NCBI GenBank assembly: GCA_945861465.1
Contig: CAMAVB010000029.1
Span: forward strand, 1-46,046
Direction: 5' to 3'
From: Candidatus Kuenenia stuttgartensis
Lineage (GTDB): Bacteria; Planctomycetota; Planctomycetia; Planctomycetales; Planctomycetaceae
DNA: 46,046 bases
In this document: piece by piece, positions 5,294-43,926 of the stretch
Numbering within the stretch: position 1 is the first letter of the stretch
How the letters are laid out: every line of letters starts with the position of its first letter
The notes under the pieces: model-generated
Database searches by the model: none
Told to the model about the DNA's origin: nothing
What the model saw: the letters and a program-made list of their open reading frames with translations, nothing else
Program-made: the position numbers and the translations under genes

Positions 5294-6499
5294 CTACTTT
5301 TGATAAATCGGCAGGTAGTGATACTTCACGGAAAGACTCAGCACCGACATCGACGTCGAATAAACGGCTCCATGTTCGCGTTCCGAGCCGTTTTCGGCGA
5401 GCCAGGATCCGTCGGCAGACTGCTTTTCAAGGAGCATTTCCTGAACCAACTTCTGAGCGGTTGCCGCATGCTCGCCACCGCGCTGGTACATCCCCTGGGC
5501 GTAATAATAGGTCCCGTAGGAACAAAAGCGTTCATTCCATTTTGGCGGATGAGCCAGCAGCCAGTCGGAGGCACCGGCGACGAGAGGGGATTCATATTCA
5601 CCGCAGACCTGCATGGCCAATAGTCCGGCGGCGGTCATCGTGAATGTGGGATTGTTCTGATGCGGCTCGTAATTGAAGCCGCTGGCCTGCTTGTCCGGCA
5701 GGCCATTTTCGTCAAGCGGTGACGAATAGGAACGTTTCAGATATTCCACAGCGTCCCGAATTGCACTGCCAGGCACCTGCAGACCGTCATTCTTCGCGGA
5801 CCGCAATGCCATCAACTGCCAGACAGTTGCAGACAAATCGGAGTCATTCGAATTGGGAGTGTAGCGCCAGCCGCCTCGAAAATGAGTAGCCTTTTTTTCC
5901 TTTTGTGAACTCAGGATCAAATCAATGGCTTTCTGGCAGCGATCATGAATCAACTGATCCTGTTCGGCAGTGGTTCCCATTCCCAACATCTCAGTCAGCA
6001 TCAGTGTGATGATCCCGTGGCCGTACATGCGGGAACCGTCTTTGCTGCCGAAGTAACCTTTGTCGTCGATGCGATCGTCCTTCAGCACAAAGGCGAGTGC
6101 CTTTTCCATCGCGCGGCCTTCCGCACTGACATCTGCCGGCTGAACTCCCACGCTGGCCATCGCCATGATGGAAAGAGCCGTCATCGTGGTGTCAATGCCC
6201 TTATCGAGGATCGCGCCGTCATCCCGCTGTTTGGTGAGGAGGTAAGCGATGGCCTTGTCGATCGCGATGTCAGTCTGGTCTTTCTGGAAGACGGAAGGTG
6301 TTGACGCGGTGTCGGTGGGTTCCTGAGCGTTCAGCCCGTTGCTGCAGGTTGCACATAGGACTGAGACAGAAATAAGTGGGGCACGATTCCATCGTGCCGA
6401 GCACGTTAAAAACGTGCTCCACGTCCGGAATACGACAGTTATTTCTGCGCCGGTCCATAGCAAAACGGCAATCACAATGCTGGTAAATACTTGATTCAC
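5294..6499 (-). CDS. Secreted prenyltransferase/squalene-cyclase-like repeat protein with a MITE in its signal peptide
   Basis: Start chosen at the GTG at 6499: it has AAAGGAA upstream and its GTGA overlaps the stop of the preceding SDR gene (4-nt overlap), which suggests translational coupling. Residues ~65-401 contain alpha/alpha-toroid repeats with QW-like motifs ([32 protein letters not shown]), as in squalene cyclase/prenyltransferase-repeat proteins; the catalytic DXDD of hopene cyclases is not visible, so no cyclase reaction is claimed. Residues 15-48 are encoded by a 97-bp repeat plus its 5-bp flanking duplication. Without them the N-terminus reads [14 protein letters not shown] joined to [10 protein letters not shown], a standard signal peptide ending LNA/QE. 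Whether the interrupted form is still exported is unclear. Confidence 0.8.
6359..6455. mobile_element. 97-bp MITE-like element, copy 1, inside a coding sequence
   Basis: Imperfect terminal inverted repeats share GAC at the tip and CAGAAATAA further in (GACTGAGACAGAAATAA against GACCGGCGCAGAAATAA). The flanks are CATAG on both sides (6354-6358 and 6456-6460), consistent with a 5-bp target duplication. Internally it has nested hairpins GGCACGAT/ATCGTGCC and GCACGTT/AACGTGC. The copy at 43729-43825 has the same length and differs at only about ten positions. It encodes no protein of its own. Confidence 0.85.
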
Positions 6500-7323
6500 A
6501 GGGGTTCCTTTGCTGCGGCGCCGAAAGTTGCGACGTCGCTCGGGGCCGTACATTTTCTGTCCAGGTGCGTGTATCCGCCATCGACGAAGATGATCTGGCC
6601 GGTCGTGTGGCTGGAACATGGTGAGGCGAGGAACACCACCATGTTGGCGAGTTCCTCGACGGTCGTCAATCGTCTTCCGAGCGGAATGAGCTGTTCCATT
6701 TCGGCTTTCGCAGCAACAGGGTCAGGCATGACTGCCAGGCATTTTTCGTAGAGCGGCGTCCAGGTTTCAGCAGGCAGCACGGCGTTGACTCGAATGCCGT
6801 GCGGAGCCAGATCGACCGCCCATTCGCGAGTCAACCCATTCATGCCGCCCTTGGAGGCCGCATAACCTGATGTTCCGCCCTGACCAGTTTCACAGACCTT
6901 AGAGCCAATGTTCACAATGGTCCCTCGCGATTTTTTCAGTGCGGCCAGAGCGAAATGGGCCATCGCATAGCAATGCACGAGATTCCGCCGCAGCGAGTCC
7001 ACAAAAGCATCGACTCCGGCATCGAGTCCCACGCCGTCATTGACGCCCGCATTGTTCACGAGGATATCGAGCCGACCGAACCGCTTCAAAGTCTGTTCGA
7101 CGGCATTCCGGCAGGCTTCGACTTCTGCCAGGTCGCCCTGAATGAAGAAGCAGTCTTTTCCCTGATCCGCATATTCCCGCTCCAGAGCCCGGCCTTCTGC
7201 ATCACTGCGATTGACGTTTGCCACGCGCGCACCTTCTGCGATGAGACGACGGACAATTCCAAGGCCAATACCTTTTGATCCGCCAGTGACCAACGCAACT
7301 TTGCCGGCGAGACCGAGATCCAT
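6496..7323 (-). CDS. SDR oxidoreductase, L-fucose dehydrogenase-like
   Basis: 275 residues from the ATG at 7323 ([15 protein letters not shown]); an in-frame ATG at 7374 would add 17 unrelated residues. Classical SDR: cofactor loop TGGSKGIG (about 14-21), NNAG, then the catalytic Ser (NIGSK) and YAASK Tyr/Lys pair. [11 protein letters not shown] and [20 protein letters not shown] match the L-fucose dehydrogenase branch of SDRs, which oxidise L-fucose or similar deoxy-sugars to the lactone; the exact sugar is inferred. The last ~17 residues extend beyond the usual ...THLDR end. Its stop overlaps the GTG start of the prenyltransferase-like gene. A double class II aldolase is divergent across 458 nt, which would fit sugar catabolism. 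Confidence 0.85.
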
Positions 7324-7781
7324 GATGTGACGTCCTGATATCGATGATATTCGAAGCGACGACCCAACCCGCATGATCTCGAACCGGAGTTTGATGATTC
7401 GGGGGGGATCTTCGACTGCCGCATGGTCGGAGCCGTTTCCGGAGAAGTCAACTCACTCTGCCACAATCGCTGAACGTGATGGTAGGCTGACCGCGATGAT
7501 CCTGTGTAAACGGCAAAGTTCCACGACAGAGACGACGGCGGGTCAGTGTTCCGGATTACCAAACATGGCAGAGCTACAGAGTGTACTTGCTGCGGCGGCA
7601 GAGATCATCGTCGCAGATTTCATCGGTCCCCCGATTCTGATCTAAAGGCCTGAACCTGGCGGTGTATTACTGCCACGGAACCGCCTTCGTGGAAATTGCG
7701 TGCTGGCCGACTTACAATCAATGCAAGGTCTGTTGTCGATCAAGCTGTTTTCCAGGATCCATTGTTCGCCGGAGTTGATTC
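7324..7781. other. Intergenic region between two divergent genes, no gene seen
   Basis: 458 nt separate the divergent SDR and aldolase genes. Reading frames on either strand (for example 7373-7645) lack recognisable domains and are not supported as genes. It must contain both promoters, but I could not pick convincing -35/-10 pairs. Confidence 0.5.
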
Positions 7782-43727: not shown

Positions 43728-43728
43728 G

Positions 43729-43825
43729 GAATGAGACAGAAATAAGTGGGGCACGATTTCATCGTGCCGGGCACGTTAAAAACGTGCCCCACGTTCGGAA
43801 GATGACAGTTATTTCTGCCCCGGTC
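43729..43825. mobile_element. 97-bp MITE-like element, copy 2, between ccoN and ccoO
   Basis: Aligned base for base with copy 1 at 6359-6455, including the CAGAAATAA/TTATTTCTG terminal arms and the GGCACGAT and CACGTT hairpins. TAAG occurs on both sides (43725-43728 and 43827-43830), consistent with a short target duplication. The strong hairpins could influence ccoO expression relative to ccoN. Confidence 0.85.
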
Positions 43826-43926
43826 TTAAGGCACAGCACGGGCCTTGTCGGTGGCCAAAGTGGGACGGATCAGACCAATCTGTCGAATCGTTATTCCTGT
43901 GACATTGTTTCCCTGGTGACAAAATC

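Follow-up and report, generated by a model that had tools for sequence, protein, structure and literature searches.

The window considered here (the whole stretch of 46,046 nucleotides that was analysed) contains a gene, probably for a secreted protein, whose reading frame runs through a copy of a short repeat-bounded element, and a second copy of the same element is present elsewhere in the window. The features to which the text refers are the following.

5294 to 6499, minus strand: host gene, 401 amino acids plus stop, start taken as GTG at 6499; residues 15-48 correspond to the element plus its duplication
6496 to 7374, minus strand: upstream gene, short-chain-dehydrogenase-like by eye, its stop overlapping the host GTG start (GTGA)
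6355 to 6357, no strand: left copy of the 3-bp target duplication ATA, from the copy alignment
6358 to 6456, plus strand: MITE copy of 99 bp, starting GGACTGAGACAGAAATAA and ending TTATTTCTGCGCCGGTCC, delimited from 44 aligned copies and the 158-copy census
6358 to 6375, plus strand: left terminal inverted repeat, 18 bp, equal to the right repeat at 14 of 18 positions by eye
6380 to 6398, no strand: inner hairpin 1, arms GGCACGAT and ATCGTGCC, from the minus-strand fold
6399 to 6419, no strand: inner hairpin 2, arms GAGCACGTT and AACGTGCTC, from the minus-strand fold
6439 to 6456, minus strand: right terminal inverted repeat, GGACCGGCGCAGAAATAA
6457 to 6459, no strand: right copy of the 3-bp target duplication ATA, from the copy alignment
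43728 to 43826, plus strand: second MITE copy in the window, flanked by TAA on both sides, about 92-93% identical to the first

We infer that the host gene starts at GTG 6499, overlapping the preceding stop; a further ATG in this frame, at 6619, falls within the upstream gene. The host protein gives weak matches to squalene-hopene cyclases, one just above and one below the Pfam cut-off.

Boundaries and copies of the element

Between positions 6355 and 6459 the order is ATA, 99 bp, ATA, and the element together with one duplication amounts to 102 nt. A preliminary description, made from the letters of the window, had placed here an element of 97 bp with a duplication of 5 bp (CATAG), and it is true that CATAG stands on either side of the window element. 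The copy population nevertheless contradicts these figures, which have to be corrected to 99 bp and to 3 bp (ATA). Three flank positions agree across the element in 39, 36 and 38 of the 44 aligned copies, while the next outward position agrees in 23, the first element base and the base after the duplication in 29, and the remaining comparisons in 7 to 16 of the 44. The values of 23 and 29 are raised because the element is of the form G...C and its targets are often C-TNA-G; in the census, C precedes the identical 3-bp flanks in 45 of 103 copies and G follows them in 61 of 103. Identical 3-bp flanks are found in 103 of the 158 catalogued copies, 97 of them being TTA (51) or TAA (46), while ATA, the target of the window copy, occurs once among the 103. 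A 97-bp element with a 5-bp duplication is therefore close to untenable, and the apparent CATAG is a coincidence, since the element has G as its first base and C as its last, and the target was C-ATA-G. The preliminary description had named copies lacking the 5-bp duplication as evidence against its proposal; such copies do occur, and they dispose of the 5-bp figure while leaving the element itself standing. A 2-bp TA duplication, which the first copies had suggested, was ruled out as well, as the third flank base also agrees in most copies.

The source genome is a draft of 8.22 Mb in 474 contigs, in which 158 elements were catalogued in 149 sampled loci (575.7 kb). These loci were picked for holding a listed match, including the first 100 of the 282 places where the end pattern occurs, so the census samples recognisable copies and is not exhaustive. 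With 13 fixed bases of 18, the end pattern is found at 282 places genome-wide and its reversed control at none, which together with the 158 catalogued copies puts the element far beyond chance. It has four of the properties by which a MITE is recognised, i.e. it is short and without a transposase gene (exactly 99 bp in 136 of the 158 copies), it has 18-bp terminal inverted repeats (14 of 18 positions identical), it is bounded by a target-site duplication (the 103 copies with identical flanks) and it is present in multiple dispersed copies. The minus strand of the 99-bp element folds at -44.4 kcal/mol (z -6.34 versus shuffles), and nothing in Rfam matched positions 6200-6600 up to an E-value of 1.

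Outside its own genome the element is hardly seen. No DNA match to it was found in 16 of the 17 other genomes of the genus, and the remaining one, G081, matches only the last 25-26 bases. When 170 genomes of the family were searched for the end pattern, 24 had it at least once; apart from the own genome, with its 282 occurrences, none had more than 3. A scan of contigs with a 25-base end pattern, which may exclude records of or near the own genome, returned five stretches, all from the MAG Planctomycetaceae bacterium RH-23may17-685 and identical in sequence to the G081 loci. The 99-bp MITE is highly amplified in this one planctomycete species.

Some copies deserve separate mention. A crude count places 29 of the 158 no more than 6 bp from the stop codon that closes a long ORF; TAA is a frequent target among them, and the stop codon itself may have been hit. 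In L126, L132, L136, L145, L150 and L158, copies that exceed 99 bp align twice to the consensus, over segments that overlap, which would fit a duplication of the inner hairpin units. An own-genome copy in L207 (about 601-700) encodes the peptide SWRMLPASEPTLAASATTIISAPVL, which resembles the peptide of the element in the sister species, and both subfamilies may coexist in the own genome.

The host gene and its export signal

That a MITE-like, repeat-bounded element lies at this place and is read through in frame by the gene of a secreted protein, as the preliminary description had it, was confirmed, as was (from the sequence) the gain of 102 nt, i.e. 34 codons, or residues 15-48 counted from GTG 6499. 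Removal of the 102 nt restores an uninterrupted N-terminal sequence, in agreement with the 24 orthologous loci that were compared (L064-L087; 64-85% identity over the mature part). The insert peptide is encoded by none of these 24 loci, of which L074 starts so close to the N-terminus that it cannot be complete and L087 has an ambiguous N-terminus; their DNA contains nothing of the element beyond a 19-base match (E 0.079). From the end of the hydrophobic core to a conserved motif, 17 of the 24 orthologues could be scored (7 unscored) and have 10-30 residues, whereas the window protein has 56, or 22 once the 34 are subtracted. Because the orthologues do not have the insert peptide and because of this core-to-motif spacing, the reading of a pre-insertion (empty) site for the window gene is well supported by sequence comparison. 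A close empty site was, however, not found for this gene: its nearest orthologues share 84-85% identity in the mature part but have signal peptides that have diverged, and in the sister genomes G101 and G081 the matches to it are distant only (best E about 1e-57 and 1e-59, respectively).

The preliminary description had called the insert polar and had concluded that export must have been changed, lost or rescued by an alternative start. In fact, the 34 residues have a mean Kyte-Doolittle hydropathy of +0.55 and are not polar. In a hydropathy scan, the first core of the present protein (11 residues) scores 2.94, with orthologue cores at 2.68-3.39 in the five that were scored identically and at 1.72-3.69 in the 17 that were scored for the motif. 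A second core of 11 residues, with a hydropathy of 2.27, is made up of the tail of the insert and the old C-region, and it stands behind ARWNR; the insert peptide in minus orientation ends in a charged-then-hydrophobic stretch of 14 residues that runs into this old C-region. Since one core is intact and a second signal-like segment has formed, loss of export does not follow, and it is judged more likely, from the predicted segments, that export is kept. The -3,-1 rule suggests two tentative cleavage points, one behind WTGA and the other at the old site (GLNA/QE). There is no in-frame ATG, GTG or TTG within the insert or from the insert to QE.

Copies in other genes, their frame and their orientation

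Spanning ORFs were listed on emptied sites, and for each element only the longest one that crosses the site and has 200 codons or more was kept. This gave 41 ORFs, 28 with a frame that is open through the element and 13 in which it is closed. (A codon-usage score for coding context was too weak, calling 71 of 89 copies 'inter', 17 'edge' and 1 'intra', with the window copy among the 'edge' cases, and was replaced by these ORFs, Pfam and orthologues.) Pfam was searched with 20 of the 28 open ORFs, 8 of the 20 having no match; the window protein was scanned separately. Among the Pfam-supported genes, the insert lies well inside an Lhr helicase, a TIR-NB-ARC-TPR protein, an outer-membrane efflux protein, an AAA ATPase and a CHAT protein, and at or near the N-terminus of a DUF1501 protein and two PSCyt1/PSCyt2 proteins, while a protein with an FGE-sulfatase domain carries a copy in minus phase 2. 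In the Lhr helicase the insert occupies residues 669-702, and the alignment to a solved Lhr breaks from 656 to 727 while the chain of the latter advances only from 1052 to 1057. In the CHAT protein the insert (158-191) falls inside the domain at 92-397; no relatives of this protein were found in the PDB.

A second empty site is provided by L138, for which the relative in G101 (72% over the N-terminal query, 86% over the gene) reads MHCCFICRWHV-IAIALVALH where the own sequence reads MLHCIAFRCSRWHV-(34 residues)-SIALIAMNLIG. L148 is a weaker case, as the starts of its relatives differ and the close relatives seemingly begin downstream. Neither has a Pfam match, and both were retained on their orthologues in the genus. 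The set that was accepted, chosen after inspection, comprises twelve genes (window, L012, L021, L028, L040, L044, L138, L148, L151, L152, L165 and L196), of which L028, where the copy is possibly upstream of the true start, and L148 are doubtful. Excluded were L042 and L026 (likely start downstream), L191, and all ORFs without Pfam support or unscanned, including the minus-phase-1 ORFs L217, L140 and L127. In L191 (1424-2200) the MITE sits in frame, in plus orientation and phase 1, within an ORF with a Y1 (IS200-like) transposase domain, i.e. one mobile element inside another, which is probably genuine. The 13 closed ORFs were judged on reading to be mostly leaders, gene ends, antisense or variant-length copies; the copy in L189, near the end of a DUF1501/sulfatase-like ORF (by eye), may truncate the last part of it, and L150 is, like L189, not clearly outside genes. 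On this sequence evidence, copies through which the frame stays open are found in 12 genes (the window gene included, two doubtful), some of them at predicted export signals.

Whichever strand is read, codon phase 1, (xTN)(Axx), runs open through the element; minus phase 2 does so with some flanks only. Target preference does not yield phase 1, as TTA and TAA occur 306, 795 and 952 times in phases 0, 1 and 2 of 217 long ORFs, respectively, and are thus commoner in phase 2. A random coding insertion would be open with a probability of 0.62, which generously counts minus phase 2 as always open; all 12 accepted copies are open (p about 0.003) and 11 of the 12 are in phase 1 (p about 0.0002 for at least 11), both values applying to a set picked after inspection. 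Openness of phase 1 on both strands is by itself no proof of adaptation, since it arises by chance at 0.28-0.49 in shuffles (0.28-0.39 for the own interior, 0.41-0.49 for the sister element).

With respect to orientation, all five accepted minus phase-1 copies lie at N-terminal export regions (window, L028, L040, L138 and L148), versus one of the six accepted plus-orientation copies at an N-terminus (Fisher 0.015, post hoc, the count omitting the minus-phase-1 ORFs L217, L140 and L127, which were not accepted as genes). A bias of the minus orientation to export regions is a lead only. A bolder idea would be that the element acts as a mobile signal-peptide patch, its minus copies surviving where they extend or re-form export signals (in the window gene, L138 and L040, and doubtfully in L148 and L028). 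This is given low odds, which were reduced because three minus-orientation ORFs were left uncounted and two of the accepted cases are doubtful; if it were true, a transposon would repeatedly be rewriting the N-termini of secreted proteins within one genome, without loss of export.

Taking the window gene and the other genes together, it seems that a non-autonomous DNA transposon (the 99-bp MITE) jumped into a gene for a secreted protein and duplicated ATA, whereby residues 15-48 were added, with an N-terminal extension or a re-formed signal peptide as the likeliest outcome; we put the probability of this reading at roughly 0.87. Because the 102 nt of element and duplication are in frame and open in the frame that is used, the protein gained 34 residues without being truncated, as sequence and orthologues both show. 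Insertions in closed phases would have been lost, which would leave the surviving coding copies nearly all in phase 1, and in the present gene export would presumably have been kept.

It could instead be that the insertion damaged the gene, that export was lost and that the gene is decaying. In favour of this, the hydrophobic core of the ancestral protein is split by the insert, and the first core has no positively charged residue in front of it; yet the insert has no stop codon, the frame stays open over residues 49-401, where identity to orthologues reaches 84-85%, and one core persists while the other arises, with the hydropathies of 2.94 and 2.27 given above, so that such decay appears unlikely. 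More improbable still is that the intragenic cases are mostly misread 5' leaders in which the open frame is accidental, the element serving as an intergenic hairpin (a terminator or mRNA stabiliser). A crude count assigns 91 of the 158 copies to intergenic positions, 29 to positions at most 6 bp from a stop and 38 to the inside of ORFs of at least 150 codons, and the start does seem to lie downstream of the site in several closed cases as well as in the aconitase-family ORF of L042. The copies in the middle of the Lhr, TIR-NB-ARC-TPR, CHAT, efflux and AAA ORFs are, however, incompatible with leaders, and the window gene itself offers no ATG, GTG or TTG between the insert and QE, its GTG overlapping the previous stop. 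An insertion that lengthened a secreted protein is thus the reading that we prefer. It makes the locus a clear, apparently recent and high-copy case in which transposition adds exact 34-codon blocks to proteins. With several insertions in one genome and relatives in the pre-insertion state, one can ask where, and in which proteins, a ready-made insert is tolerated, and whether export signals retain copies of one orientation.

Mobiliser and relation to known elements

A transposase of the ISAzo13 type (PF07592) is a candidate for moving the MITE, at somewhat less than even odds. ISAzo13-type elements with uninterrupted frames occur in the own genome, with ends such as GGAGCCGCGCCAAAATAA and TAA or TTA flanks, and they are the nearest match found; counted by eye, their agreement with the MITE is 14 of 18 positions for the right end and 10 of 18 for the left. 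Our filter picked out an end pair in 5 of the 20 PF07592 loci that were examined, one of which (L261) was dropped as unrelated. None of the 12 PF01609 loci has a matching end pair around the transposase, and PF01609 was rejected as the mobiliser, the only pair in these 12 loci (in L052) being a MITE-sized copy beside the transposase. Against the ISAzo13 type stands the arrangement of the flanks: in L048, L049, L247 and L250 the 3-bp TWA flanks are inverted (TAA...TTA or TTA...TAA), whereas those of the MITE are direct (97 direct TTA/TAA pairs, 4 mixed). A long element with the MITE's own ends (GGAC...CAGAAATAA) was found in none of the sampled loci, and the transposase with matching ends that the preliminary description had proposed to look for did not appear in the loci examined, the families covered being PF07592 and PF01609. 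The putative link to the ISAzo13 family would rest on the similar GG...AATAA ends and the TWA flanks in the own genome, and the differences are the incomplete agreement of the ends and the inverted flanks of the four IS copies seen.

The element in G081 (MAG RH-23may17-685) shares with the window element the right end, apart from one base, and the presence of two inner hairpins. Of its five loci, three have a length of 99 bp (the other two 81 and 77), three have identical 3-bp flanks and four are open in phase 1 whichever strand is read; the element differs in the sequences of the hairpins and in its left half. REP elements are not known to make a target duplication. As palindromes of 20-40 bp (PMC3733652), they do not fit the window element, with its 99 bp and its duplication of 3 bp.

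In the open-licence literature on MITEs and signal peptides, on planctomycete miniature inverted repeats and on ISAzo13 and MITEs (including PMC9208149), as far as these texts were available in part, no description of this element was found. Bacterial MITEs that are read in frame have been published for Rickettsia and Yersinia, and one of these makes up part of a signal peptide. The Rickettsia palindromic elements (RPE; Ogata et al. 2000) are described as short palindromic repeats of about 150 bp, in ten families, which lie in frame in many unrelated protein genes (PMC10969869, PMC2229807); the first of the two sources, a review, adds that in-frame fusions with intragenic MITEs are not unusual and that RPE form them unusually often (PMC10969869). 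The 99-bp element resembles the RPE in its in-frame insertion into unrelated protein genes, and differs in being 99 bp long, in having one dominant family and in its 3-bp TWA duplication, the two being set side by side by description only. RU-2/YAPL of Yersinia and ERIC/RU-1 of enterobacteria are likewise described, in the passages available, as MITEs that are read in frame (Delihas 2007, PMC2759123; PMC2229807). In those fusions, as far as the passages go, the MITE helps to form a new exported protein, whereas here an existing gene family was hit and the orthologues preserve what appears to be the pre-insertion state. The planctomycete case offers an unusually clear record of insertion and, possibly, a bias to export signals.
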